From Segetibacter sp. (GTDB lineage: Bacteria > Bacteroidota > Bacteroidia > Chitinophagales > Chitinophagaceae): a stretch of 58,182 bases of DNA. Where the stretch lies: the NCBI GenBank assembly GCA_021154405.1, contig JAJKIP010000129.1, positions 1-58,182 on the forward strand, given 5' to 3'. Under the pieces are notes generated by a model that saw only the letters and a program-made list of their open reading frames with translations, had not been told where the DNA came from and ran no database searches. Made by a program: the position numbers and the translations under genes. Shown here one piece after another: positions 29,215-50,218 of the stretch (within the stretch, counting starts at the first letter, position 1; every line of letters begins with the position of its first letter).

Positions 29215-29424
29215 TTTATCAGCCATTGATTCTTTACCTGTTAGTTGCAGTTTCCAAACTTTAGCTGGCTAACAACTTATAAGCATTTATGGGGAATTAT
29301 ATACCCATGCAGGTTTTAATAATATGGCTTACAGTAAAATAAATATCAGCATTTTAAACTAAGGGATAACGATGGCAAGGGATTTGAAAATCATAGTTGC
29401 CCGGATATCTTGACGGGAACCACA

Positions 29425-30258
29425 ATGTACAGAAATACCATTTTATTATTAGCTCTGGCTGGGGTTGCCCTTTTAACAGGTTGCGGCAAACGAGGAGAGA
29501 AATACATAAGTCCGGCAGGTTATAATTTTCTGGTTTCTCATCAATACAAGCTTCCCCTTGAGCTGGATGAGATTTCAGGTGTGGCATTTTATGCAAAAGA
29601 TTCTTCCATTTTCGCTATTAATGATGAGAAAGGATGGCTTTATAAAATAAAACCGGGGAACCAGCTGGATATTCGCAGGTGGAAATTTTCTTCCGGTGCT
29701 GATTTTGAAGATCTGGTCCTGTTCGATAGCAGCTTTTACGTTTTACAAAGCAATGGAAATATTATAAAGATTTCCGTTCAGGATAGTGGAAATCTTGTAA
29801 CTCATGAGTATCCGTTTACATTTGGAAGAGAGAACGAATTTGAGATACTATATTATGATGATTCCCTCAAAAAAATGGTACTGATCTGCAAGGATTGTGA
29901 ATCAGATAAGAAGAAATCCCTTACTACCTTCACCTTTAATCCACATAACGGAACTTTCTCCGATTCTTCATTTACGATTGATGTGAAGCAGATAGCGTCA
30001 GCCATAAATGAGGAAAAACTGAAATTCAAGCCTTCTGCAGCAGCCATTAACCCAAAAGACGGACTTTTGTATATTATTTCATCGGTTAATAAATTGCTGG
30101 TAGTTGCGGACAGAAAGGGCGGCGTGAAAAAGGTGTATCCAATTGATCCTGGCTTATTTAAGCAACCTGAAGGCATCAGTTTCACCCCATCTGGTACCAT
30201 AATCATTTCAAATGAAGCGGCAGGGGTAGGTGTAGCGAATATCTTAATCTTCAAATAG
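29425..30258 (+). CDS. SdiA-regulated-like beta-propeller lipoprotein
   Basis: A lipoprotein of about 277 residues. The likely start is the ATG at 29425 (MYRNTILLLALAGVALLTGC gives the lipobox cysteine); an ATG at 29410 adds five residues. The mature part has propeller strands typical of the SdiA-regulated domain: LELDEISGVAFYAKDSSIF, FAINDEKGWLYKI, DFEDLVLFDSSFYVLQSNG and, at the end, QPEGISFTPSGTIIISNEA. Members are secreted beta-propellers of uncertain function, related to esterase-like phytase-type propellers. It is followed 12 bp later by the metallophosphoesterase-barrel gene, so it is probably the first gene of that operon; the 210 bp upstream contain only a weak hairpin at 29240-29273. 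Confidence 0.75.
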   Translation: MYRNTILLLALAGVALLTGCGKRGEKYISPAGYNFLVSHQYKLPLELDEISGVAFYAKDSSIFAINDEKGWLYKIKPGNQLDIRRWKFSSGADFEDLVLFDSSFYVLQSNGNIIKISVQDSGNLVTHEYPFTFGRENEFEILYYDDSLKKMVLICKDCESDKKKSLTTFTFNPHNGTFSDSSFTIDVKQIASAINEEKLKFKPSAAAINPKDGLLYIISSVNKLLVVADRKGGVKKVYPIDPGLFKQPEGISFTPSGTIIISNEAAGVGVANILIFK

Positions 30259-30270
30259 TAAAATCTGATC

Positions 30271-33200
30271 ATGAAAGTCCTGGTATTGATTGGCTGGCTG
30301 GTTTTGTCGTCCGAAATTTTATTAGCACAGGATTCTGTAAAAACAAAAATTATTCTTGTAGGAGATGCCGGATCACTGATAAATGGCAAGGCCATGGTGC
30401 TTGACGCTATCAAAGCCAATGTAAAGATGAACGAGAAAACTGTGGTGGTTTACCTCGGTGACAATCTTTATGATACGGGACTTCCCGATGAAACCTATAA
30501 CAGTTATACAGATTTAAAAGCGGCCCTTGATTCCCAGATAAATTTAATAAAAGACGCAAAGGTCCGTGGATACATGATCCCGGGCAATCATGACTGGGCG
30601 AATGGACGTGCATATGGATATCAAAATATCCTTCGTGAACAAAGCTATGTTGACCTGAATGGGGATGGGAAGATCCAGTTCTTTCCCAAGGGCGGATGCC
30701 CTGGCCCTGTGGCAATTGATATCAGCGATGATGTGGTACTGGTGATGATGGACAGCCAGTGGTGGATACAGGCAACTGACAAGCCCGGAATTGAGTCAGA
30801 TTGCGAATTCAAAACTGCTGATGAGGTGATCAGCGAGCTGGAAGATATTCTAAACAAGAACTTCAACAAGCTGGTTATACTTGCAACTCATCATCCTTTC
30901 AAAAGTAATGGTCCGCATGGCGGCTATTTTACGATTAAACAGCATGTTTTTCCTTTTACAGACAGTCGCGAAAATCTTTTCATTCCCTTACCTGTTCTCG
31001 GCTCAATTTATCCCATTGCCCGAAGCGTATTTGGTACGCCCCAGGATTTAAAACATCCTTTCTATACTAATATGACTAACCGCATTATGGCAGCGGTACG
31101 GACTCATCCTCATGTGATCCTGGTGGCAGGGCATGAACATGCACTACAGTTGCTGAATGACTCCAGTTATAATTTCGTGATCAGTGGTTCCGGCTCAAAA
31201 ACCACCCGGGTGTCTCCAGGCCGGAAAGCAAAGTTTGTAGCAAGAGCCAATGGATTTGCCACCCTTGATATCCTTAAAAACAAGACTGTGAGAGTGGATT
31301 ACTTCACATTAGATAAGAACAAACCGGACTCACTAAAACATGCCTATTCCGAAAACATACTTGATTACAGTAAGTTGCCACCCATACCTGAAGACACAAC
31401 CAGGAAGGTAGAATATGTTTATAGAGATTTTGTGGTAGCATCAGCAGGCAAGCATTATACAAAAACTACAAGCATTCAAAGGTTATTTAGTGGTGATAAT
31501 TATCGCAAGGAATGGGGAACTCCCGTGAGATTAAGAGTATTTAATATTAACAGGGAAAAGGGTGGTTTTACAATTGAAGGGGTAGGAGGAGGAAAGCAAA
31601 CCAAATCCTTAAAGCTGAAAGATAAACAGGGCCGTGAATGGTCACTCCGTACAATAGATAAAGATCCGGAAAAAGCAATACCCGAAAACTTCAGGGAAAG
31701 TTTTGCATCCAATATTATACAGGACCTGATTTCGGCTTCACATCCTTATGCTCCATTGGCATTACCTGTATTGGCTGATACAACAGGTGTGCTAATGTCT
31801 CCTTCAGAATTCTTTTTAGTTCCTGATGATCCTTCGCTGGGTTATTACCGTCCCCTGTTTGCCAACCAGGTTTGCATGCTGGAAAGAAAAGATCCTGAGG
31901 GTACGGAAGATACCAAGAGCAGTTATTCCATGTTCAATAAAATGAGAGAGGATAATGATCATACGGTTGACCAGCAGGCTGCCCTGCGTGCACGTTTGCT
32001 GGATATGCTGATTGCAGACTGGGACAGGCATCTTGATCAGTGGAGATGGTCTACCCGCGATACCGGCCAGGGTAAATTGTATACTCCCATTCCACGTGAC
32101 CGGGATCAGGCATTTTTCTATTCAGATGGATTAATTATGCGGTACGTAGCGCGCCGCCGGATGCCCTTTCTTAAAGGTTTGCGTTATAATATTCCAAAGG
32201 TTAACCAGCTTAATAAAGTGGCCAAGGACTTTGACAGATTGTTCCTGAACAGCCTGGATGAAAACGCCTGGAGGGATATCTCCAAAAAATTCGCTTCCCA
32301 GTTAACGAACGATAAGATCAATCAGGCAATGCACATGTTGCCTCCTGAAATATATGCAATAAATGGAAAAACGATTACTGACAAGCTGATCAGCCGACGG
32401 AATATTATTTCGCAGAGAGCGTTACAATACTATCACTTCCTTTCAAAAGAAGTAGCAGTGCTTGGTAGCAATGAAAATGAGAACTTCCATTTTACCGGTC
32501 AAAATGATTCCCTGAAACTTACGGTATATTCCTATCGAAAACATGCGGACAGCAATTTTGTGATGTATCAGCGGGTTTTTGATCCAAGGGTCACGCGAGA
32601 AATAAGATTATACGGCTTTAACGGAAATGACAAGTTTACTGTAGATAGCGGTTTGCATACCTCAATTCTGATAAGAATGATCGGTGGGCGCGGAAATGAT
32701 TCTTTCTATGTGAACAGCCCGGTGCGATCTGTGGTCTATGATATTTCAACGGAAAATAATTACCTGTCAGCCTCCAGTCGTACCAAAAAGATTTTTGAAA
32801 ACAACCCGAATATCAACGATTTCAATATCACCTGGTATAATTATCCTGTTAAAAGGTTCCCCCGTTTTTATGCAGGTATCAATGGTGACGATGGATTTAT
32901 GCTGGGTACCGGGTTTACCTTTATTAATTATGGCTTCCGGAAAGTTCCCTATGCCAATAGCCATGTAGGGCTTGCACTCTTTGCGCTTAACCGCAAAGCA
33001 TACCAGTTCAAATATAATGGAGAGCTGATTCATGCATTTGGAAGAACAGACCTGTTAATCAATGCCCGCGTCATTAATCCGGTACTAAATAACTTCTTTG
33101 GATTTGGTAACAGGACCAGAGTGGATCCTTCAAAGCCTATTTCTTTTTACAGAGTGCGTTACCGGGAAGCAGCCGCAGACCTATTGTTCCGGAGAAAACC

Positions 33201-33912
33201 CACACCCATTCTAAGTATAATATTCGGTCCTACTCTTTATCAATACTGGAACAGCTACAACAGCAATTCCCAATATATACTTGGTAAACCAGGGGCTTTC
33301 GGCCTGGATTCTGCTGAAGTATATAATGTAAAAACATATGTAGGAGGCAAAGTGGGCGTAGAATTAGATAATTTGAATAATCCTATATTCCCCACACGCG
33401 GTATCCGGTGGACTAATACTTTCAGCATGACCCAACCCCTCAACCATAACAGTCAGGCAATCAGCAAGCTTGAATCTGATATGGTGGTTTATGCCAGCCT
33501 GAAAATTCCGGCAAGAATTGTGGGTGTAATAAAGTTAGGAGGCGGCCATATTTTCAATGATAGCATCGAATACTTCCAGGCCCTTTCCCTTGGACAAAAT
33601 AATGTGTTGAGAGGTTTTAGGAAAAACCGGTTTTCGGGGCATTCTGTAGCATATGGAAGTCTGGAATTGCGGATAAAAGTGCTGGAAGGTAAATCCTATG
33701 TATTACCCGGGCAGGTAGGAGTCATTGCATTCAATGATATTGGTCGGGTTTGGTATAGAGGAGAGCAAAGCCGGAAATGGCATAATGTGATTGGCGGAGG
33801 GCTTTACTACAATCCATTTAACCTGGTAATTGTATCCGCCACTATCGGAGTATCGCCGGAAGAAACGGTATTCAATTTTTCAATCGGTACAAAATTTAAT
33901 CTAACATTTTAA
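30271..33912 (+). CDS. Metallophosphoesterase fused to a kinase-like segment and an Omp85/D15-like outer-membrane barrel
   Basis: A 1213-residue envelope protein. After a signal peptide (1-20) comes a calcineurin-like phosphoesterase (about 25-345): VGDAG, LGDNLYDTG, PGNHDWANG, ATHHPF and VAGHEHA supply the metal ligands. Residues about 395-640 form a second domain shared with the protein at 38372-40936: a glycine-rich GVGGGKQTKSLKLKD, then DMLIADWDRHLDQWRW (D583, D585, H587) and PIPRDRDQAFF (D610, D612). This spacing resembles the catalytic and metal-binding motifs of CotH/Fam20-type secreted kinases. The remainder is beta-strand rich and ends with LGQNNVLRGFRKNRFSG and a C-terminal F, as in BamA/TamA-like barrels. 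It starts 12 bp after the lipoprotein gene and ends 5 bp before the HD-PycTM gene. The kinase assignment is my inference. Confidence 0.8.
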   Translation: MKVLVLIGWLVLSSEILLAQDSVKTKIILVGDAGSLINGKAMVLDAIKANVKMNEKTVVVYLGDNLYDTGLPDETYNSYTDLKAALDSQINLIKDAKVRGYMIPGNHDWANGRAYGYQNILREQSYVDLNGDGKIQFFPKGGCPGPVAIDISDDVVLVMMDSQWWIQATDKPGIESDCEFKTADEVISELEDILNKNFNKLVILATHHPFKSNGPHGGYFTIKQHVFPFTDSRENLFIPLPVLGSIYPIARSVFGTPQDLKHPFYTNMTNRIMAAVRTHPHVILVAGHEHALQLLNDSSYNFVISGSGSKTTRVSPGRKAKFVARANGFATLDILKNKTVRVDYFTLDKNKPDSLKHAYSENILDYSKLPPIPEDTTRKVEYVYRDFVVASAGKHYTKTTSIQRLFSGDNYRKEWGTPVRLRVFNINREKGGFTIEGVGGGKQTKSLKLKDKQGREWSLRTIDKDPEKAIPENFRESFASNIIQDLISASHPYAPLALPVLADTTGVLMSPSEFFLVPDDPSLGYYRPLFANQVCMLERKDPEGTEDTKSSYSMFNKMREDNDHTVDQQAALRARLLDMLIADWDRHLDQWRWSTRDTGQGKLYTPIPRDRDQAFFYSDGLIMRYVARRRMPFLKGLRYNIPKVNQLNKVAKDFDRLFLNSLDENAWRDISKKFASQLTNDKINQAMHMLPPEIYAINGKTITDKLISRRNIISQRALQYYHFLSKEVAVLGSNENENFHFTGQNDSLKLTVYSYRKHADSNFVMYQRVFDPRVTREIRLYGFNGNDKFTVDSGLHTSILIRMIGGRGNDSFYVNSPVRSVVYDISTENNYLSASSRTKKIFENNPNINDFNITWYNYPVKRFPRFYAGINGDDGFMLGTGFTFINYGFRKVPYANSHVGLALFALNRKAYQFKYNGELIHAFGRTDLLINARVINPVLNNFFGFGNRTRVDPSKPISFYRVRYREAAADLLFRRKPTPILSIIFGPTLYQYWNSYNSNSQYILGKPGAFGLDSAEVYNVKTYVGGKVGVELDNLNNPIFPTRGIRWTNTFSMTQPLNHNSQAISKLESDMVVYASLKIPARIVGVIKLGGGHIFNDSIEYFQALSLGQNNVLRGFRKNRFSGHSVAYGSLELRIKVLEGKSYVLPGQVGVIAFNDIGRVWYRGEQSRKWHNVIGGGLYYNPFNLVIVSATIGVSPEETVFNFSIGTKFNLTF

Positions 33913-33917
33913 TAAAT

Positions 33918-35180
33918 ATGAAAGCCGTGCAAGTGGATATATTAAAACAGTGCGAGGATTATGTTAGTTCGTTGTATGAATCTGACCATAATCATAACCT
34001 GGTCTATCATAGCATTGATCACACTCGCAAGGTTGTAGACCATGTGAACGAGATCGCTTCCCATTATGAACTGGAGGAAAAAGATATCATAGTTCTCAAT
34101 CTGGCAGCGTGGTTTCATGACACCGGTCATTTATATGAGGACCCTATTGATCATGAAAAGAAAAGCGTTAAACTGATGCGTGACTGGATTGAGACGAAGG
34201 ATATTTATGCTGCGCTGGCGGATGAGATCGAAAGAACTATCATGGCCACCCGTATCGACAGTGAGCCTTCCAATTTGCGGGAGCAGATCATCAAGGATGC
34301 CGATACCTATCATTTCGGCACCAAAGATTTCAAAGTTTTTGACAAATTGATGAAGAAGGAGATGAAGCTGAGAAACCTGGACACCATCTTGATGGATTGG
34401 GAAAAGAATACGCTGGCTCTCCTGGCGCATCATCAGTATTATACTGACTATTGCAAAAATTTACTGGAAGAAAGAAAAAGAAAGAATATGGCTAAGATAA
34501 AAAAGCGTATCAACGAGATATATGCATCCAATAGTAGCGAGACGCTGATACCTGAAACCAAAAAGTCAAATGAGGATGGAAAGGACATGAATAAACCAAG
34601 TGGTTTTATCACCAAGGGTATTCAGACCATGTTGCGCCTTACTTCTGAGAACCATATGCGTCTTAGTGATATGGCAGATAACAAGGCTAATATCCTGATC
34701 AGTGTAAATGCCATAATCATATCAGTGATACTATCCGTTTTGATCAGAAAGATCGAAGTGGACAGGCACCTGACAATTCCAACCATGATCTTCCTTGCCA
34801 GTTCACTCACTACTATTGTGCTGGCCATACTTTCCACGCGGCCAAAGATCACCACTGGTAATTTTACCCGGGACCAGGTGCTGAACCGTCAAACCAACCT
34901 GTTGTTCTTTGGAAATTTTCATAAGGTGAAGCTGGAAGAGTACAAGTGGGGGATGAGCACCATGATGCGTGACCCGAATTATCTCTATGGTTCTGTAGTT
35001 GATGATATTTATTACCTTGGGCAGGTACTGGGAAGAAAATATCGCCTTGTGCGTATCGCCTATAATGTATTCATGATCGGCATTATTACTTCCGCTATCG
35101 CATTTATTATCGCCATAATGGTCAATGATGCAACCGCACAGGGACCGAAGGTCATAGAAGGAACGGGATCCCCGTTTTAA
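33918..35180 (+). CDS. HD phosphohydrolase fused to a Pycsar-effector (PycTM/DUF5706) membrane domain
   Basis: A 420-residue protein with two modules. Residues about 10-190 are an HD domain with ligands H35 (YHSIDH), H67-D68 (WFHDTG) and D127 (IIKDADTYHF), expected to bind two metals and hydrolyse a phosphoester or nucleotide. A charged linker (190-230) leads to a membrane module (240-405) with the PycTM signature LSDMADNKANILISVNAIII, helices at about 258-277, 286-305 and 383-402, and the conserved DDIYYLGQVLGRKYRLVRIA. In Pycsar antiphage systems PycTM effectors bind cCMP or cUMP and damage the inner membrane. Here a class III cyclase is encoded two genes downstream, with polyphosphate kinase between them. 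It could be a defence effector or a housekeeping sensor; the sequence does not decide. Confidence 0.88.
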   Translation: MKAVQVDILKQCEDYVSSLYESDHNHNLVYHSIDHTRKVVDHVNEIASHYELEEKDIIVLNLAAWFHDTGHLYEDPIDHEKKSVKLMRDWIETKDIYAALADEIERTIMATRIDSEPSNLREQIIKDADTYHFGTKDFKVFDKLMKKEMKLRNLDTILMDWEKNTLALLAHHQYYTDYCKNLLEERKRKNMAKIKKRINEIYASNSSETLIPETKKSNEDGKDMNKPSGFITKGIQTMLRLTSENHMRLSDMADNKANILISVNAIIISVILSVLIRKIEVDRHLTIPTMIFLASSLTTIVLAILSTRPKITTGNFTRDQVLNRQTNLLFFGNFHKVKLEEYKWGMSTMMRDPNYLYGSVVDDIYYLGQVLGRKYRLVRIAYNVFMIGIITSAIAFIIAIMVNDATAQGPKVIEGTGSPF

Positions 35181-35188
35181 TAAAAGAT

Positions 35189-37252
35189 ATGTACCACAAC
35201 AGGGATATAAGCTGGCTTGGATTTAATTATCGCGTATTACAGGAAGCAGCAGATAAAACTGTGCCTTTGATGGAACGGATCAAGTTTGTTTCAATCTTCT
35301 CATCCAATATGGATGAGTTTTTTCGTGTTCGTTATCCCATAATACTGCTATATTCTCAACTAAAAAACAAAACATTAAACAAGATAATTCCTCCGCCAGA
35401 TAAAGACCTTGCTGAAAGAGTTCAGCAAATGGTTCCCGGACAATTTGCTGAGTTTGGAAGCATACTGAATAAGGACCTGATTCCCGGTTTATCAAAGGAA
35501 GGCATTGAATTATATTATAATAAACCGATCCCACCTGATTTGTCTGGCCAGATCAGGGAAATCTTCTTTTCGCGCATACTCGCCTTTATGCAGCCCGTTT
35601 TTATCCGTGAATCCTTAAAAGAAGATCTCTTCCTTGAAAGCAACAAGTTATACCTGCTGGTTCTCCTGAAAAAACCGGGCGAGGAATTATTACAACATGC
35701 AATAGTCAATATTCCCGCTGATAAGCTACCCCGCTTCTATACCCTGGAATCAGATGATGATAAACGTCATATTGTTTTCATCGATGATATCATCCGTGAT
35801 AATCTGCCCTGTATCTTCATCGGTTTCAAGGTACATTCCAGCTATAGTTTCAAACTTACCCGTAATGCAGAACTCTATCTGGATGAAGAAAATTATAAAA
35901 AGGATATTTTAAAGGAGCTGGAAAAGAAGCTGGAAAAAAGAGATGAGGGTGCACCTACCCGGTTCCTGTTTGAAGAAGGCATGCCCACCAGTGTGCAGAA
36001 ATTCCTGGCATCCTCCCTTGGGCTAAAATATGAACAGCTTTATGCTGGTGGCCGTTACCATAACCTTAGTGATCTGGCCAAACTTCCTGTTAAGGATAAG
36101 CATCTTGTTTACCCGGAATTAAAACAATTACGATCTGTACAACTGGATGATTGTGGTGATATTTTCCGCCGCATCGAGAAAAATGATGTGCTGTTACATT
36201 TTCCTTATCATAGCTATAGTCCCGTGCTTACCTTGTTTAACCAGGCAGCCATTGACCCGGATGTGAAACTGATTTATGTAACGCTTTACCGCATTGCAGC
36301 TGATTCTCATATCGCCAATGCCCTGATAAGCGCGGCCAAGAATAAAAAGGAAGTAGTGGTATTCGTAGAATTGAAGGCGCGTTTTGATGAAGCCAATAAT
36401 ATACGGTGGTCAAAAGAAATGGAAAAGGCAGGAGTAAAGATCATTTACAGCATTCCGCGGATTAAGGTTCATTCCAAGATTGCCCTGATCCAAAAACAAA
36501 CCCCGGAAGGTACTGTAAAGTCTTACGCATACATCGGCACTGGTAACTTCAATGAAACTACTGCCCGCTTTTATACAGATCATGCATTATTTACTACTGA
36601 TTCTTCCATTAACAGGGATCTTCAGAGACTATTCAAATTCCTGCGGACCCGTTCCAGGCCTGTGAAAAAAGCAGCCCGTGAATTTGAGTCTATCCTGGTC
36701 TCCCAATATAATATGACGGATATATTTGAACAGGAGATCAATGCTCAGATCAAACGGAAGAAAAAAAACCTGTCAGCCTGCATACGAATCAAACTCAATA
36801 ACCTGGAAGATACGGGGATGATTGACCTTTTATACAAAGCTGCAAAGGCCGGCGTTCAGATAAAATTGGTAGTGAGAGGCATCTGTGCGCTGAATACACA
36901 GGAAAAAGGATTAAAAGGGAACATTGAAGTGAAAAGAATTGTGGACAGGTTTTTGGAACATAGCCGGATATTCATTTTTGGCGAAGAGGGCAAGACCAAA
37001 ATTTATATGGGATCTTCAGACTGGATGACCCGCAATCTTTTTCATCGAATTGAGGTATGTGTGCCTGTTAAACAACAGAACCTCGCCCGGGAGCTGGAAG
37101 ATTATTTTACTATCCAATGGAACGACCATATTAAAGCTTCGTCTGTGGAAATGGAAAATTCCTCTTACATACAGGATAATGATGGAATAAAAGCTGAGGG
37201 AAAACGAGGTTCGCAGGAGGAGATATACAATTATCTAAAAACCCGTCAATGA
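35189..37252 (+). CDS. ppk1: Polyphosphate kinase 1
   Basis: A 687-residue enzyme that reversibly polymerises the gamma-phosphate of ATP into polyphosphate. The full PPK1 layout is present: N-terminal domain (RDISWLGFNYRVLQEA, SSNMDEFFRVRY), head domain, and two phospholipase-D-like C-terminal domains. The autophosphorylated histidine is H428 in RIKVHSKIALI, and the second essential histidine is H591 in FLEHSRIFIFG. YIGTGNFNETTARFYTDHALFT is also diagnostic. It starts 8 bp after the HD-PycTM gene and overlaps the cyclase gene by 4 bp, so all three are probably translated from one mRNA. No exopolyphosphatase (Ppx) gene is adjacent. Confidence 0.96.
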   Translation: MYHNRDISWLGFNYRVLQEAADKTVPLMERIKFVSIFSSNMDEFFRVRYPIILLYSQLKNKTLNKIIPPPDKDLAERVQQMVPGQFAEFGSILNKDLIPGLSKEGIELYYNKPIPPDLSGQIREIFFSRILAFMQPVFIRESLKEDLFLESNKLYLLVLLKKPGEELLQHAIVNIPADKLPRFYTLESDDDKRHIVFIDDIIRDNLPCIFIGFKVHSSYSFKLTRNAELYLDEENYKKDILKELEKKLEKRDEGAPTRFLFEEGMPTSVQKFLASSLGLKYEQLYAGGRYHNLSDLAKLPVKDKHLVYPELKQLRSVQLDDCGDIFRRIEKNDVLLHFPYHSYSPVLTLFNQAAIDPDVKLIYVTLYRIAADSHIANALISAAKNKKEVVVFVELKARFDEANNIRWSKEMEKAGVKIIYSIPRIKVHSKIALIQKQTPEGTVKSYAYIGTGNFNETTARFYTDHALFTTDSSINRDLQRLFKFLRTRSRPVKKAAREFESILVSQYNMTDIFEQEINAQIKRKKKNLSACIRIKLNNLEDTGMIDLLYKAAKAGVQIKLVVRGICALNTQEKGLKGNIEVKRIVDRFLEHSRIFIFGEEGKTKIYMGSSDWMTRNLFHRIEVCVPVKQQNLARELEDYFTIQWNDHIKASSVEMENSSYIQDNDGIKAEGKRGSQEEIYNYLKTRQ

Positions 37253-38346
37253 AACGCCTTTTCAAGGCAATAAAGAATCTTCCATTTATTGCCTTATACC
37301 GGCTTCAATGGATCGCCATCATTTCGCTGGTATGGACGGCGTTTGAACTGCTGCTTTATTATCGGGCCTTTTATTCTGAACTGCGCTTTGACTACCCTTA
37401 TAAAGAGAATTTTTTTTCAGCGTATATGTTAAGGGCGGCCATTTTCCTTAGCCTTAGCGCTATCATGGCCTACCTGATACTTGTAGAGTGGATGGTGCGT
37501 TTCAGGAATATTTCACTGTTGGCAGGATGGGTCATAAAGACTGTAATACTTCTGGCTATCGCCGGTCTTGGAACAACACTTGTTTTCATTGCTCATTTCA
37601 TGGGTATTAAAGACCAGAGTTTCGCTTCCACTCTTAACGAATTGAATTATTATTTCTTTCATACCGGTTACTTTGTAGACAGCCTGTTCTCCTGGATAGT
37701 GATCATCCTGGTCACTGAGGTGCTGATTGAGGTGGACCAGAAGTATTCACCCGGTGTATTCTGGCAAACTGTTACAGGCAAATACCTCAAGCCAAGTACA
37801 GAAACAAGAATTATCATGTTTCTTGATCTCAAGGATTCAACCCCAATTGCCGAAACCTTAGGGCATGAACGCTATTTTTCTTTCATCAAGGACTTTATCT
37901 ATTATGTTTCTTCTGCAGTACTTGATAATGGCGGTTATATTCACCAGTATGTGGGTGATGAGATTGTAGTAACCTGGCCACTCCGGCGATCTAATTTTCA
38001 AAAATCATTAAATACCGTTATCCAGGCGCGGCGAACCCTCCAACATACTTCCGATTATTTCCGTCGCAAGTATGATATTGTACCTGAATTCAAAGTTGGC
38101 ATGCATCTAGGAGAGGTTACTATTGGTGAAATTGGTGTGATGAAAAAGGATATTGCCATCAGTGGGGAAGCCATGAATATAGCTGCACGAATACGTACTG
38201 CGTGTGGCGAACTTAACCAGAAGTTTATTGTTTCCCAGGAGTACTTTGACAGCAATGTGCTGAAATCGTGGCAGTGCGAGAATTTAGGCGAGATAACCCT
38301 GAAAGGAGTAGAGAAACCAGTTCAGTTGTACGCGCTTAAAATCTAA
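37249..38346 (+). CDS. Membrane-anchored class III nucleotide cyclase
   Basis: A 365-residue protein with four predicted membrane helices (about 19-40, 61-82, 94-116, 144-162) and a C-terminal class III cyclase domain (about 183-365). The metal-binding aspartates are D193 (IIMFLDLKDST) and D237 (QYVGDEIVV). The transition-state pair N310 and R314 is present in EAMNIAARI, so catalysis is plausible. The usual adenine-selecting lysine is Q233 and the second base-contacting position is A303, so ATP specificity cannot be assumed; a pyrimidine or other nucleotide is possible. The start codon overlaps the end of ppk1 (ATGA). Together with the HD-PycTM protein it suggests a cyclic-nucleotide signal made at the inner membrane. 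Confidence 0.9.
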   Translation: MKRLFKAIKNLPFIALYRLQWIAIISLVWTAFELLLYYRAFYSELRFDYPYKENFFSAYMLRAAIFLSLSAIMAYLILVEWMVRFRNISLLAGWVIKTVILLAIAGLGTTLVFIAHFMGIKDQSFASTLNELNYYFFHTGYFVDSLFSWIVIILVTEVLIEVDQKYSPGVFWQTVTGKYLKPSTETRIIMFLDLKDSTPIAETLGHERYFSFIKDFIYYVSSAVLDNGGYIHQYVGDEIVVTWPLRRSNFQKSLNTVIQARRTLQHTSDYFRRKYDIVPEFKVGMHLGEVTIGEIGVMKKDIAISGEAMNIAARIRTACGELNQKFIVSQEYFDSNVLKSWQCENLGEITLKGVEKPVQLYALKI

Positions 38347-38371: not shown

Positions 38372-40936
38372 ATGAAACTTGTGTTCAAATATTGTGTAAG
38401 TATTCTTTTGCTTCTGTATGCCAGAACTGCAATTTCGCAGACCACTGTGGTTACTGGTGCGCCTGCTGTAAAAGGAACTACAGTTGTAATTGCAGGAAAA
38501 GAATACGCAAAGAGCGGGTACCATAATTTTTTCTGGGGTGACCATTATCGGAAAGAATGGAATACACCAGTACGGGTCAAAAATTTTTACCTGGATACAG
38601 CAAAAGGGGGATTAATAGCATCTGAAACTGGAGGCGGTCGAGAAACCAGGAGCCTTCGCGTAAAAGATAAGGAAGGAAAGGAGTATGTATTGCGCAGCGT
38701 TCACAAGCGAGTTGGACAGGATCTTCCAGATGAGGCGCGCGGTACCTTCATCAGTCGCATCGCACGAGACCAGGGTTCTGTTGACCATCCTTTTGCTGCC
38801 ATTGTCATTCCTCCACTGGCTGAAGCCGCAGGAATATATCATACAATTCCCGTCATTGTGTTTGTGCCAGAACAGGCTGGTCTGGGCAGCTTTAATAAAG
38901 AATATGGTAATCAGCTATATCTTTTTGAAGAACGGCCGGATGAAAACCAGGAAGGTTCAGCTCATTTTGGAAATTCAGTCAACCTTATCGGAAGTGATAA
39001 ACTCTTTGAACATATTTGGGAAGACAACGATAATCATGTAGATGAAAAAACTTTTGTTCGTGCCAGGCTTTTTGATATGGTGATAGGTGACTGGGGTCGT
39101 CACCCCGGGAACTGGCGCTGGGCGAAATTTGATGTGGGCAAGAGTAATATTTATCGCCCTGTTCCCCGGGACAGAGACCATGCTTTTACGAAGATCGATG
39201 GATTGTATCCTTCAGTGGCTGGATGGGTATATAAACCATTTCAGGGATTTGATAGAACAATTAAAGATGTACCGGGATGGAATAAGCATGGCAGGCCGCT
39301 TGACCGACTTTTTCTTACTGATCTGACTAAGGAAGTATGGATTGAACAGGCAAAACAGATTCAGCAGGCACTCACTGATACATTAATTAGTTCCAGTGTT
39401 CGCCTCATGCCCCCTGAGTTATTTGTTATTTCGGGCAACAGCATCATTGAACGAATAAAATCCAGGCGTGACCATTTACAGGAGTATGCTGCTGCATATT
39501 ATAAATATCTCTCTCAGCGTGCGGACCTGCCCGGAACTCATGACAGAGAACTGTTTACCATAGATCGCATAAACCAAAAAGAAACAAAGATTGAAGCCTT
39601 TAAGATCACAAAAGAGGGAGAAATAAAAAAAGAGCCATTTTATTCCCGTATGTATAACAGCAGGGAAACGCGGGAGGTAAGGATCTACTCCCTGGAAAGC
39701 AATGACAAGGTAATAGTGAGGGGAACCAACAGTCGCAACCCGATTAAAATACGAGTGATTGACCCCGATGCAACTGATTCTGTTTTGTTTGAAGGAGATC
39801 ATCTGCAGAATGAAGTTGAAATTTATCGCGGTAATAGATATGAATATGATACAGCTCACCAGAAAAAATTCAATTTTTCGATCCGTCCTTTTATTTCTTC
39901 ATCCCGTTATCAGGTATTTGATCGGAATCCCTTAAAGAGTTTTCCCCGTACAGGACTTAAAGTGATTGCTACGCTCACCTATATTCCAAAACCTTGGGAG
40001 AAGGTGGAGTATGAAACTTCTCACCACCTTTGTTTTAACTATGGCATACTCCGTAATGCGTTCAATTTTGGATATATCGGAAGATGGGGAAGGCTTTTTG
40101 GCAAATGGGATTTTGTGATAAAGGCCAGAATGGATGCACCAGCTGTTGAAAATTTCTTCGGTACTGGTAATGAAAGCAAATTAATCAACAAGACCACTAA
40201 TTATTACCGTACGCAAAGTGAGCGTCAATATGTTGGAATTGGAATTGAAAGGGATATTGAGAAAGTGCATCATTTTGAATTCTCTTTGATTGCGCAATCA
40301 ATTAAAATAAATAACACCGGAGATCATTATATTACCGCTGTTCAAACCCTGGTAGATCCTTCTGTTTTTGATAGAAAGTTTTTTGCCGGGGTAGAAGCTG
40401 GGTACTCTTACCTGAACGTGGATAACCAGGTATTTCCATTTAAGGGTGTGGGAGTAAGCCTGGGTGCAGGCTATATTCGCAATATTGATGATAACAAATC
40501 TTTTGTCAAAGGCCTGCTGAGTACAACAGCGTTTCTTCCCTTAAGCAGGCAGTTCAGCCTTGCAATAAGGGCGGGTGGCGGAGCACTAAGTGGTACTGCG
40601 GATTATTATAATCTGAATTCTATTGGTGGAGGTGGTAGTGGAGAAATGCGAGGATATGACAGGGAACGATTCTACGGAAAACAGTCTTTTTACCTGAATA
40701 ATGATCTGCGCTGGGTATTCAACACTAAAAACTATTTGTACAATGGTAAAGCAGGTCTTCTTGTCTTTTATGATATGGGACGGGTCTGGATGCCGGGTGA
40801 GGTTTCCAATTCATTACATGGCAGTTATGGATTCGGAGCCATCTTCATCCCCTATAATCGTTTCTCCCTTACTGCTACTTACGGAATCTCTTCAGAAGCA
40901 ACTCACATAAACTTTAAAACGGGCTTCTTCTTCTAA
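38372..40936 (+). CDS. Outer-membrane protein with kinase-like segment and C-terminal barrel
   Basis: An 854-residue exported protein (signal peptide 1-22). Residues about 45-300 parallel residues 395-640 of the phosphoesterase protein at 30271-33912: HYRKEWNTPVRVKNF, the glycine-rich TGGGRETRSLRVKDKEG, DMVIGDWGRHPGNWRWA (D240, H244) and PVPRDRDHAFT (D267, D269). The residue equivalent to D585 is glycine here (G242). No phosphoesterase domain is present. The C-terminal half is strand-rich, with GSGEMRGYDRERFYGKQSFY like the conserved D15/BamA region, and ends GFFF. It lies 25 bp after the cyclase gene and is closed by a strong terminator, so it is the last gene of the operon. The enzymatic role is unproven. 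Confidence 0.78.
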   Translation: MKLVFKYCVSILLLLYARTAISQTTVVTGAPAVKGTTVVIAGKEYAKSGYHNFFWGDHYRKEWNTPVRVKNFYLDTAKGGLIASETGGGRETRSLRVKDKEGKEYVLRSVHKRVGQDLPDEARGTFISRIARDQGSVDHPFAAIVIPPLAEAAGIYHTIPVIVFVPEQAGLGSFNKEYGNQLYLFEERPDENQEGSAHFGNSVNLIGSDKLFEHIWEDNDNHVDEKTFVRARLFDMVIGDWGRHPGNWRWAKFDVGKSNIYRPVPRDRDHAFTKIDGLYPSVAGWVYKPFQGFDRTIKDVPGWNKHGRPLDRLFLTDLTKEVWIEQAKQIQQALTDTLISSSVRLMPPELFVISGNSIIERIKSRRDHLQEYAAAYYKYLSQRADLPGTHDRELFTIDRINQKETKIEAFKITKEGEIKKEPFYSRMYNSRETREVRIYSLESNDKVIVRGTNSRNPIKIRVIDPDATDSVLFEGDHLQNEVEIYRGNRYEYDTAHQKKFNFSIRPFISSSRYQVFDRNPLKSFPRTGLKVIATLTYIPKPWEKVEYETSHHLCFNYGILRNAFNFGYIGRWGRLFGKWDFVIKARMDAPAVENFFGTGNESKLINKTTNYYRTQSERQYVGIGIERDIEKVHHFEFSLIAQSIKINNTGDHYITAVQTLVDPSVFDRKFFAGVEAGYSYLNVDNQVFPFKGVGVSLGAGYIRNIDDNKSFVKGLLSTTAFLPLSRQFSLAIRAGGGALSGTADYYNLNSIGGGGSGEMRGYDRERFYGKQSFYLNNDLRWVFNTKNYLYNGKAGLLVFYDMGRVWMPGEVSNSLHGSYGFGAIFIPYNRFSLTATYGISSEATHINFKTGFFF

Positions 40937-46549: not shown

Positions 46550-49500
46550 ATGAATACCCTGAGACGCCTGATATCCTCGATAGCCCTCGTAGCCACAACC
46601 CTTGCCACATCTGCACAGGATTATAGTAATATTGAATTTGTTGAGAATAAAGGACAGTGGGATCCCCGCGTGAAGTATAAAGGTGATGTAAATGCCGGGT
46701 CTGTTTTCATTACAGATAAAGGGTTCACCATCGTACAGCACAATGCTGATGATTACGGCGCATTGCAGAGCGCTCTTCATGAGTTCAATAGCAAAGCCAC
46801 TGAATCACTTCGTAAGGAATATGGAAAGACAACCATCCGTTCTCATGCAGTGGAAGTTGAATTTATTGGGGCTTCTCCCAATATGCAGGTGGTGGCTGAT
46901 AAGCCGGTAGATTCCTATAATAACTATTTTACAGGTGATGATCCTTCCAAATGGGCATCCAATTGCCGCATTTACCAGGCGGTTACATTAAAAGACGTTT
47001 ATCCAAATGTTGATGTTCGTTACTATACAAATAATGGTACGCTCAAATATGATATTATCGCAAAGCCTGGTGCAGATGTTAAAAAGATAGCCCTGAGATA
47101 TAAGGGTGCTGATAAAATGGCTGTGAAGAATAAGGAATTGATTGTAGGTACTTCAATCGGGGATCTTGCAGAATCCTATCCCTATTCTTACCAGGGTTCC
47201 AAGAATGGCCGTCTGGCAGTTAAAACAAAATACCTGGTAAAAGATGATGTTGTACGATTTGATGTAGAGAATTATGATAAGAATTCCACTTTGGTGATCG
47301 ACCCTGTTTTTCGCTGGTGTTCACTTTCTGGAAGTGGCGTCAATCAATGGGGGTTTACTGCTACTTATGGACCTGATGGAAGCTTTTATGGCGGTGGTAT
47401 TCTGTTTGAGGGAACTGGTTATCCGGTCAGCCCAGGTGCTTTCCAAACCCAATTCGCGGGTGGGTCTTCACCTGTTCCGGTTGATATCGGCATTATTAAA
47501 TTAACTGCGGATGGGGCACGCCGCTCTTATGCAACTTATATCGGTGGTTCTGGTTCTGAACAGCCTCATAGTCTTATTGTTGATCAAAATGGGAACCTGT
47601 TCATTGCCGGCAGAACTAATAGTCCATTAACAGGTAATGGCGCCTATCCTCTGAAGGGTACCAATACCATCATTGGCAAAGGAGGCGGTTATGATATCAT
47701 TGTTACTGAATTAAATCCCGGGGGGACAGGTCTGATCAATTCAAAACGTATTGGGGGTATAGGTGATGATGGTGTAAATATCAAGGAAGGACGTAGTGGA
47801 ACCAGTTCACTTGAGCAGAATTATGGTGATGATGGAAGAAGTGAGATCATTCTTGATAATGGAGGAAATATTTATGTTGCTTCGTGTACTCAATCCGGGT
47901 CCAGTACTGCAGGCGATGCTTTCCCTGCGAGTGCAGGTGCTTATAAAAAGACCTTCGGTGGCGGGTTGCAGGATGCAGTGGTAATAAAGTTCAGTCCCAA
48001 CGTAGGAAATTTATTGTTTGCAACCTTTCTGGGAGGCTCGGGTAATGATGCAGCCTATGTATTATCACTTGGTCCCAATGGTGATATATATGTAGGTGGT
48101 GGTACCGAAAGCAACAATTTTGTTGATCCATCTGCAACTGCCGGAACAATCAGTTCAACATTCAAGGGAGGCATTGATGGTTTCGTTGCCAGATTAAGTA
48201 ATGATGGGTCTACGCTAATCAAAGCGACTTATTTAGGAACTGACCAGATAGATCAGGTCTATGGTCTCAAATTCGATAATAAAGGATTTCCGTATGTAAC
48301 CGGACAAACAAGAGGTGTGTGGCCAGTGCAACCTGCTGGTATATATAGCTCAGGTGGAAAGCAATTTATTGCCAAGCTTCAGCCTGATCTTTCCGCGTAT
48401 GTTTATTCAACTGTATTTGGAAATGGTTCCACTATTCCTAATATATCGATCACTGCGTTCCTTGTAGATCGGTGCGAAAATGTATATGTGTCTGGCTGGG
48501 GCGGTGCCATCAATAATACTAACCCGACAGAATATGCCAGTGGAGGAACTTTGGGCTTGCCGTTAACTCCGGATGCATTGCCTTATCCTCCAGGTGGTCC
48601 AGATGGCCAGGACTTTTATTTCTTTGTATTAAAGAAAGATGCCGTTTCTCAATTATTCGGAAGTTATTTTGGGCAGAATGGTGGATTCACGGACCACGTC
48701 GATGGTGGTACCAGTCGCTTTGATGCAAATGGTGTTATCTACCAGGCCATGTGTGCCAATTGCGGAGGCATAGGAACTTTCCCTGCTTCCCCCGGCGCGT
48801 ATTCAAGAACAAAACCTGCCAGTGCCTATTGTAATCTCGGCATGGTGAAAATTGCGTTTAACCTGGCAGGTGTAGGAGTAGATGTTGAATCAGCTATTAA
48901 CGGAGTGCCAAGGGATACTGCAGGTTGTGTACCCCTCGATGTAACGTTTACTGATCAGGTACGCAATGCCAAAGAATATATCTGGAATTTTGGAGATGGT
49001 ACTGGTGATTTCGGCCCCATGAAATCCGATACCGGTTATACCCGCACACACACCTTTACTGCTGTTGGTGTTTACCGCGTAAGACTGATTGCCATTGATC
49101 CGGCCAGTTGTAATGGACGGGATACTTCTTACGTCAATATCAAGGTTGGAGATCTGAAAGCAGCTTTGGCAGCTTCTTACCAAAAAACAGGTGCATGCAC
49201 AGCACTTGATTACCAGTTTAACAATCTTACTCCCCAGGTTACGGCGAGACCTTTTACAGATTCTTCATTTGCCTGGGATTTTGGTGATGGCAGTCCTTTG
49301 GTGGTGGCAGGTCTTAATCCGGTTACACATACTTATCCTGCAAAGGGCACTTATAACGCCATGCTGATTTTGAGGGATACAGCCTATTGTAATTATCCTG
49401 ATACTTTCCCATTGAAGGTTAGTGTGGTAGATAACGTGAAGGCAAGGATAGAAACACCACCATTAGGTTGTGCTCCGTACACTGTTCAATTTGGTAACAC

Positions 49501-50218
49501 TTCAGACGGCAATGGTACCTGGGAATGGGATTTCGGTGATCCTGCATCAGGCGGCAATAATACTTCTACAGCCTTTGAACCTGTTCATACGTATGATGTC
49601 CCTGGCAACTACACAATCCGATTAATAGCCCGTGACCCCAACACGTGTAATAAGGTTGATACAGGATATATAACAATCACGGTTTATGACAAGCCAATAT
49701 CTCATTATAGCTATTCTCCGGTAACACCGGTGGTCAATACACCAGATATCTTTAACAATGAGTCTTCAGATAATGCTGTAAGATTTAAGTGGGTTTGGGG
49801 TGATGGAGATTCATTATTGACCACATCAAGAGCACCGGTAACCTATCAATACAATGCAACAGGTACCTGGAACGCCTGCCTGATAGCCTTTAATACGGCA
49901 GGATGTTCGGACACTTTCTGCCTGCCAGTGCAGACCATTATTGATCCGCTGATAGATGTACCCAATGCGTTCACACCCAATACAGGAGATCTCAATAGTG
50001 TGATCAGGGTACGTGGCTTTGGTATTGCAAAAATGAGATGGACCATCTGGAACCGGTGGGGAAAGAAAGTATTTGAGACAGCCAACCGGAATGAGGGTTG
50101 GAACGGCAGGTTTAATGGAACAGTTCAACCCATGGACGTATATATGTATACCCTTGACGTGGAATTTTTCGATGGAAAGAAGGCAACTAAAAAAGGTGAC
50201 ATAACTTTAATAAGATAA
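46550..50218 (+). CDS. T9SS type B sorting-domain surface protein with SBBP and PKD repeats
   Basis: A 1222-residue secreted protein. After a signal peptide (1-22, ending SAQ) comes a DUF7948-like domain (about 25-250, IEFVENKGQWDPRVKYKGDV, ending VIDPVF). Then come SBBP-type beta-propeller repeats (about 255-750, for example ATYIGGSGSEQPHSLIVDQN and ATFLGGSGNDAAY) and four PKD-like domains (WNFGDGTG, WDFGDGSP, WDFGDPAS, WVWGDGDS). The last about 85 residues are the gliding-motility CHU_C domain (VPNAFTPNTGD, WNRWGKKVFET, NGRFNGTVQPMDVYMYTL), which directs export by the type IX secretion system. A PorP/SprF-family gene follows immediately. It is probably an adhesin or structural surface protein. 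Confidence 0.92.
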   Translation: MNTLRRLISSIALVATTLATSAQDYSNIEFVENKGQWDPRVKYKGDVNAGSVFITDKGFTIVQHNADDYGALQSALHEFNSKATESLRKEYGKTTIRSHAVEVEFIGASPNMQVVADKPVDSYNNYFTGDDPSKWASNCRIYQAVTLKDVYPNVDVRYYTNNGTLKYDIIAKPGADVKKIALRYKGADKMAVKNKELIVGTSIGDLAESYPYSYQGSKNGRLAVKTKYLVKDDVVRFDVENYDKNSTLVIDPVFRWCSLSGSGVNQWGFTATYGPDGSFYGGGILFEGTGYPVSPGAFQTQFAGGSSPVPVDIGIIKLTADGARRSYATYIGGSGSEQPHSLIVDQNGNLFIAGRTNSPLTGNGAYPLKGTNTIIGKGGGYDIIVTELNPGGTGLINSKRIGGIGDDGVNIKEGRSGTSSLEQNYGDDGRSEIILDNGGNIYVASCTQSGSSTAGDAFPASAGAYKKTFGGGLQDAVVIKFSPNVGNLLFATFLGGSGNDAAYVLSLGPNGDIYVGGGTESNNFVDPSATAGTISSTFKGGIDGFVARLSNDGSTLIKATYLGTDQIDQVYGLKFDNKGFPYVTGQTRGVWPVQPAGIYSSGGKQFIAKLQPDLSAYVYSTVFGNGSTIPNISITAFLVDRCENVYVSGWGGAINNTNPTEYASGGTLGLPLTPDALPYPPGGPDGQDFYFFVLKKDAVSQLFGSYFGQNGGFTDHVDGGTSRFDANGVIYQAMCANCGGIGTFPASPGAYSRTKPASAYCNLGMVKIAFNLAGVGVDVESAINGVPRDTAGCVPLDVTFTDQVRNAKEYIWNFGDGTGDFGPMKSDTGYTRTHTFTAVGVYRVRLIAIDPASCNGRDTSYVNIKVGDLKAALAASYQKTGACTALDYQFNNLTPQVTARPFTDSSFAWDFGDGSPLVVAGLNPVTHTYPAKGTYNAMLILRDTAYCNYPDTFPLKVSVVDNVKARIETPPLGCAPYTVQFGNTSDGNGTWEWDFGDPASGGNNTSTAFEPVHTYDVPGNYTIRLIARDPNTCNKVDTGYITITVYDKPISHYSYSPVTPVVNTPDIFNNESSDNAVRFKWVWGDGDSLLTTSRAPVTYQYNATGTWNACLIAFNTAGCSDTFCLPVQTIIDPLIDVPNAFTPNTGDLNSVIRVRGFGIAKMRWTIWNRWGKKVFETANRNEGWNGRFNGTVQPMDVYMYTLDVEFFDGKKATKKGDITLIR

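Follow-up and report, generated by a model that had tools for sequence, protein, structure and literature searches.

A kinase-fold domain between a purple-acid-phosphatase-like domain and an Omp85 barrel: a putative kinase/phosphatase pair in the Bacteroidota envelope

Kinases of Gram-negative bacteria are commonly regarded as cytoplasmic, since the periplasm has little ATP. A gene of Segetibacter sp. (contig JAJKIP010000129.1) raises the question whether a kinase and a phosphatase may be joined in one exported chain. An original prediction had placed a segment resembling secreted kinases of the CotH and Fam20 type inside a phosphoesterase-barrel protein. Here, we analysed the whole stretch of 58,182 nucleotides that carries the gene, referred to as the window. 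The protein encoded at 30271-33912 is composed of a signal peptide, a purple-acid-phosphatase-like domain, a kinase-fold domain, a beta linker and an Omp85 barrel, in this order. Conservation counts refer to an alignment of 78 relatives (A1). The features are:

30271-33912, plus strand: whole gene, open reading frame of 1213 amino acids (Pfam; structure models)
30271-30330, plus strand: N-terminal signal peptide MKVLVLIGWLVLSSEILLAQ, residues 1-20 (sequence reading; export signals or anchors in relatives)
30331-31395, plus strand: metallophosphoesterase domain, purple-acid-phosphatase-like (PF00149; motif conservation; PDB relatives)
31456-32454, plus strand: kinase-fold domain, residues 396-728 (AlphaFold2; fold matches; the shortest relatives hold nothing else)
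31579-31608, plus strand: glycine-rich loop GVGGGKQTKS, residues 437-446 (G439 68/78, G440 70/78, Q443 66/78)
31660-31662, plus strand: K464, candidate ATP-binding (VAIK-type) lysine after a predicted N-lobe strand (73/78)
31723-31725, plus strand: D485, probable helix-C partner of K464, in the helix after the K464 strand (AlphaFold2; 73/78)
32011-32043, plus strand: putative catalytic loop IADWDRHLDQW, residues 581-591 (D583 75/78, D585 67/78, Q or N at 590 74/78)
32086-32115, plus strand: putative DFG-type metal motif PIPRDRDQAF, residues 606-615 (D610 70/78, D612 68/78, F615 69/78)
32473-32796, plus strand: short-strand beta linker from kinase-fold domain to barrel, residues 735-842 (AlphaFold2 secondary structure)
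32848-33888, plus strand: 16-strand Omp85 barrel, residues 860-1206 (PF01103; predicted strands; BamA/TamA match)
29410-30258, plus strand: SdiA-regulated-type propeller protein immediately upstream (PF06977, 29.1 bits, cut-off 21; start codon uncertain, TTG as listed)
38372-40936, plus strand: second copy of 854 amino acids with kinase-fold domain and barrel, without phosphatase (35% identity; PF03865, ShlB)

The beta linker holds repeated G-x-G-N-D-x-F turns (GFNGNDKFTV and GGRGNDSFYV). All motifs that had been claimed for 31450-32200 (residues 394-643) lie within that range, namely GVGGGKQTKSLKL at 437-449, IADWDRHLDQW at 581-591 and PIPRDRDQAF at 606-615. The segment was thus located correctly, but it had been drawn too short: set at residues 395-640, it reaches to about residue 728 (nucleotide 32454). 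The two acidic motifs are present as described, at a distance of 25 residues (D585 to D610) instead of about 20. The protein is also of the phosphoesterase-barrel type, with PF00149 and PF01103 matches flanking the kinase-fold domain on either side.

Concerning the N-terminal part, PF00149 matches residues 26-223 with 35.3 bits (cut-off 21.5). The motifs GDAG (31-34), LGDNLY (62-67), GNHDW (105-109), HHP (207-209) and GHEH (287-290) are found, and of 31 full-length members nearly all retain the patterns GDxG, GDNxY, GNHD, HH and GHxH. The best sequence relatives in the PDB are TRAP/purple acid phosphatases (E ~1e-3); structures 1ute and 1war have the same five patterns, whereas the phosphatase described here is part of a fused outer-membrane protein. 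By the PF00149 match and the metal motifs, including GDNxY, the domain is classed as a calcineurin-like phosphoesterase of the purple-acid-phosphatase group.

At the other end, PF01103 matches residues 954-1209 (45.5 bits, cut-off 24). In an AlphaFold2 model of the C-terminal 479 residues, 16 long strands come after a stretch of short ones, and the barrel matches BamA (Z 24.9) and TamA (Z 24.0). LRGF at 1113-1116 occupies the position of the [VL]RG[FY] motif of the lid loop (loop 6). Pfam domain, 16-strand barrel and loop-6 motif together place this part in the Omp85 superfamily; POTRA domains are absent from the Pfam matches of the protein. The text of an Omp85 survey (PMC4104836) makes no mention of a phosphoesterase subfamily.

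What, then, is the middle domain? Pfam, NCBIfam, PHROGs and PADLOC gave nothing usable for it, so that no Pfam or NCBIfam model accounts for the motifs, and a single-sequence search of the PDB with the domain had no match. DUF1598 and other scattered sub-threshold matches were dismissed as chance, as were EF-hand-like profile matches, confined to the C-terminal helices. The AlphaFold2 model of residues 377-790, built on A1, has a pLDDT of 94.6 and a pTM of 0.93, and its fold is the two-lobed one of kinases. With Foldseek against the PDB, CtkA of Helicobacter pylori came first (E 4e-6), followed by type II phosphatidylinositol 4-kinase (PI4KII) alpha (2e-4), a bacterial Ser/Thr kinase, CotH (3.5e-4) and HipT (3.7e-4); further matches were kinase-fold proteins or complexes containing such proteins. 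VIA-align 2 ranked PI4KII highest (Z 15.2, rmsd 4.4, 258 residues aligned), before CotH of Bacillus cereus (5jd9/5jda; Z 13.9, rmsd 4.2, 248 aligned, 14% identity), CtkA (13.5), actin-fragmin kinase and HipA (11.2 each) and the secretory-pathway kinase Fam20 (4kqb; Z 10.7, rmsd 4.9, 236 aligned, 12% identity). PI4KII is a peripheral membrane kinase; at about 10% identity, the likeness in fold does not imply a lipid substrate. A structure comparison with viral models yielded, among other matches, phage proteins with PI3/4-kinase and CotH domains.

A likeness to CotH and Fam20 had been proposed from the motif spacing, and the predicted fold bears it out. Neither of the two outcomes named in advance as contrary to the proposal, a fold unlike that of kinases and a Pfam domain that would account for the motifs, was observed. 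Membership in the CotH or Fam20 family was not found. The CotH model PF08757 has no match in the window protein at E 1 and reaches two of 78 members below cut-off (best E 0.018), and the Fam20C Pfam model has no match in the window protein at E 1. Compared profile to profile with 30 Bacteroidota CotH proteins, the family scored P 0.0047, with both the catalytic loop and DxDxAF in register, while four unrelated neighbour families used as controls gave P 0.13-0.46 and HipA gave 0.13. Since HipA did no better than the controls, and HipA_C (PF07804) is absent at cut-off from the window protein and its relatives, no HipA membership is claimed. A search with the family profile found CtkA as well, with an E of 0.2 that is weak on its own, aligning the catalytic loop DMLIADWDRHLDQWRW with DTLLGNFDRHNGNWGF. 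The window loop IADWDRHLDQW aligns with GNFDRHNGNWGF of CtkA, where D-x-L-x-G-x-x-DRH-x-x-N/Q-W matches residue by residue. Sequence and model together assign the domain to the kinase-like superfamily, as a so far unclassified family whose relatives are CotH, CtkA/HipA and Fam20.

Each of these relatives differs from the window protein in architecture. In CotH, too, the catalytic Asp loop is followed by D-x-D/N-x-x-F, but at the position of the metal-binding Asn the window protein has Gln, and it is fused to phosphatase and Omp85 barrel. True CotH genes occur separately in Bacteroidota; in two genomes, one of about 380-390 amino acids stands head-to-head within about 3 kb of a kinase-Omp85 gene (G019:C15:16534-17403, beside L027, and G070:C10:23802-24674). 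CtkA and HipA/HipT are stand-alone kinases without outer-membrane anchor, unlike the window protein. Fam20 acts outside the cytosol, and relatives of 423-425 amino acids found here are likewise held by an N-terminal membrane helix, but the window protein is bacterial and barrel-fused. By fold and motif order, the domain may work like the exported kinases of the CotH/Fam20 type. Mammalian Fam20C reportedly phosphorylates osteopontin, which TRAP is said to dephosphorylate; in the window protein, relatives of both folds are joined in one chain.

Conservation in A1 bears on catalysis. Besides K464, D485 and D583, E538 (74/78) and D578 (77/78) are kept, and G439/G440/G441, R586 and H587 are conserved as well; many of the top-conserved positions correspond, by alignment, to those that a kinase needs. 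The arrangement D585-x4-Q590 retains the D+5 spacing of HRDxxxxN. D585 would thus be the HRD-type Asp and Q590 would take the position of the metal-binding Asn (Q in 68 and N in six of 78); the roles of D583/D585 and D610/D612 are assigned from alignments. With the glycine loop G439-441, K464, D585, Q590 and D610/D612, the window protein has the catalytic residue set of the kinase superfamily. Averaged over 12 motif positions, conservation in the 78 relatives amounts to 91%, as compared to 46% over all columns. Of 20,000 randomly drawn 12-column sets, none equalled the motifs, nor did any of 20,000 sets limited to D/E/K/G/Q positions. Because this conservation far exceeds both the column average and the random sets, the motifs are not due to chance. 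The missing Pfam kinase match at cut-off could be cited for a coincidental likeness, the domain then being a POTRA-like region or a linker of the usual kind. This is hardly credible in view of the high-confidence model, the fold matches to kinases only and the motif conservation; the model already contradicts it.

The main rival to a kinase/phosphatase pair is a pseudokinase. The domain would then bind or scaffold; it might, for instance, gate the barrel or the phosphatase on sensing a nucleotide or a phosphorylated ligand. Its extracytoplasmic site, with little ATP, and the Gln in place of the usual Asn in 68/78 relatives fit such a role, but Fam20C has Glu at the D+5 position and is active nevertheless. 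In 11 of 78 relatives, Asp is replaced at position 585. One of them is the second copy in the window, whose catalytic loop reads GDWGRHPGNW (Gly for D585) with the equivalents of K464, D610 and D612 retained; Gly is also found at this position in L063 and L064, and a divergent tail of relatives (L045-L048, L054) has lost most motifs. These cases speak for a pseudokinase, and the second copy is possibly a pseudokinase paralogue adjoining an intact gene. For the family at large, however, K464, D585, Q/N590 and D610 or D612 are jointly present in 62/78 relatives, down to about 25% identity, which is unexpected for a pure scaffold. We consider a pseudokinase role rather unlikely, and kinase activity is predicted on the strength of fold and residue conservation.

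The family is widespread. An alignment search found the kinase-fold domain in 115 of 296 Bacteroidota genomes and 63 of 140 genera (111 genomes with a single sequence). The genome of the window has four copies, one of them 4.5 kb downstream within the window. With the full protein as query, one scan of genome contigs gave two near relatives. Four architectures occur: phosphatase, kinase-fold domain and barrel (about 1200-1350 amino acids); kinase-fold domain and barrel (about 850-950); kinase-fold domain with linker, exported or as lipoprotein (about 500-590); and the kinase-fold domain alone behind a single hydrophobic N-terminal membrane anchor (423-425). The phosphatase is missing from the kinase-Omp85 and kinase-only forms, so that the two domains are not obligate partners, a point against a kinase/phosphatase pair. 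In two genomes (loci L103 and L104), each of the three parts of the window protein has a homologous gene of its own, and these genes, for kinase-fold protein, phosphoesterase and Omp85 barrel, are consecutive. Such a split of genes that are fused elsewhere is classical evidence for joint function.

Most family N-termini have a signal peptide, and a number of full-length members have a lipoprotein signal; a crude regular expression, subject to some false positives as well as misses, counted a lipobox-like pattern in 20 of 79. Chains of Omp85 proteins enter the barrel from the periplasm, and for this reason we place the enzyme-like domains on the periplasmic side. They are extracytoplasmic, with the periplasm more likely than the cell exterior. 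The prediction of a phosphatase and a kinase on one protein, facing exterior or periplasm, thus holds for the phosphatase domain, the kinase fold and the extracytoplasmic site. In favour of display at the cell surface, which has been proposed for patatin autotransporters (type Vd), stands the layout of patatin PlpD, where an Omp85 barrel likewise comes after an enzyme domain at the N-terminus. The Omp85 barrel is also common to TamL, a Bacteroidota lipoprotein, as are several members of the present family; PlpD and TamL differ from the window protein in their N-terminal parts, which here are kinase-fold and phosphatase domains. We judge surface display unlikely, as L103 and L104 encode kinase and phosphatase as separate lipoproteins and a barrel with its own signal peptide, and the 423-425 amino acid forms are tethered by an N-terminal membrane helix. 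Moreover, known surface-export signals have an acidic run after the lipobox Cys, but the residues at this site (CATSKPYV, CSSSKLYY, CASHKTQY) contain none.

The neighbouring genes recur as well. Within 5 kb of 35 barrel-type loci, HD-PycTM was found at 23, the SdiA-regulated propeller at 20 and polyphosphate kinase 1 (PPK1) at 13; by our own estimate, based on 1-2 PPK1 copies per 4 Mb, PPK1 would lie within 5 kb of about 1% or fewer of random loci. PPK1 recurs beside the family across the phylum, as does, in several genomes, a SixA-type histidine phosphatase. In the window, 33918-35180 encodes a fusion of an HD domain with the transmembrane domain of Pycsar effectors (PycTM, 122 bits), 35189-37252 encodes PPK1 inside the cluster, and the gene thereafter (37249-38346) encodes a class III cyclase with PADLOC PycC matches (E 1.9e-14). 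HD-PycTM genes next to kinase-Omp85 genes mostly have no cyclase nearby and occur at 23/35 loci; HD-PycTM therefore appears to be a conserved companion of the family, and not just a gene for defence. Further downstream, at 46550-50218, lies the gene of a large secreted protein, in which DUF7948 and PKD repeats occur together with a CHU_C signal for type IX secretion.

PPK1 touches on a further reading, that the domain moves a non-phosphate group (AMPylation, glutamylation) or uses polyphosphate or another nucleotide as donor. The kinase-fold families SelO and SidJ carry out chemistry other than phosphotransfer, and a polyphosphate donor would fit PPK1 at 13/35 loci. PPK1 and its polyphosphate are cytoplasmic, however, the gene neighbourhood does not reveal chemistry, and the motif order is that of phosphotransferases. 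This reading appears very doubtful to us.

Sequences and, for the fold, a confident model show how the protein is built, which residues are conserved, how far the family has spread, its export signals and the fission of the gene; we infer the periplasmic side, catalysis, phosphate donor, substrate and opposed activities. The reading that we favour, at slightly better than even, is an outer-membrane-anchored, periplasm-facing kinase/phosphatase pair by which a phosphate mark would be set and removed in the envelope. The BamA-type 16-strand barrel would anchor the protein in the outer membrane, with both enzyme-like domains on its periplasmic side. Most likely, the kinase domain would phosphorylate a protein, lipid or glycan of the envelope, with K464, D485, D585, Q590 and D610/D612 as putative catalytic residues and Mg or Mn as metal. 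The phosphatase, being part of the same chain, would strip the phosphate again. One protein, or its three-gene version, could thus both write and erase the mark. As ATP is scarce in the periplasm, the phosphate donor is a problem for this model.

A pan-kinome study of Legionella (PMC9758233) describes other novel kinase families, among them Lani_1194, a kinase-methyltransferase fusion of different architecture. The Riemerella protein OMP76, found by keyword match alone, is an unrelated TonB-receptor-like barrel. The literature covered, with subscription papers and preprints mostly outside its scope, describes no kinase- or metallophosphoesterase-Omp85 protein; an earlier description is possible.

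In this study, we describe a regularly exported kinase-fold family with intact catalytic residues. About 40% of the Bacteroidota genomes sampled have it, often as a fusion with a phosphatase and an outer-membrane barrel. For those large outer-membrane proteins in which curated domain libraries leave the middle third blank, it offers a concrete hypothesis. Only tentatively do we extend the kinase/phosphatase pair to a widespread, unrecognised envelope phosphorylation system of the Bacteroidota, in which a BamA-type barrel would hold new extracytoplasmic kinases and a purple acid phosphatase in the outer membrane, with a link to polyphosphate metabolism and a donor that has to reach the periplasm. 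If the kinase prediction is true, phosphorylation would take place in the envelope of a major phylum, raising the question of the phosphate donor; otherwise, this is a striking family of exported pseudokinases. Sequences and models suggest that Bacteroidota may add and remove phosphate in their outer envelope, where kinases are unexpected.
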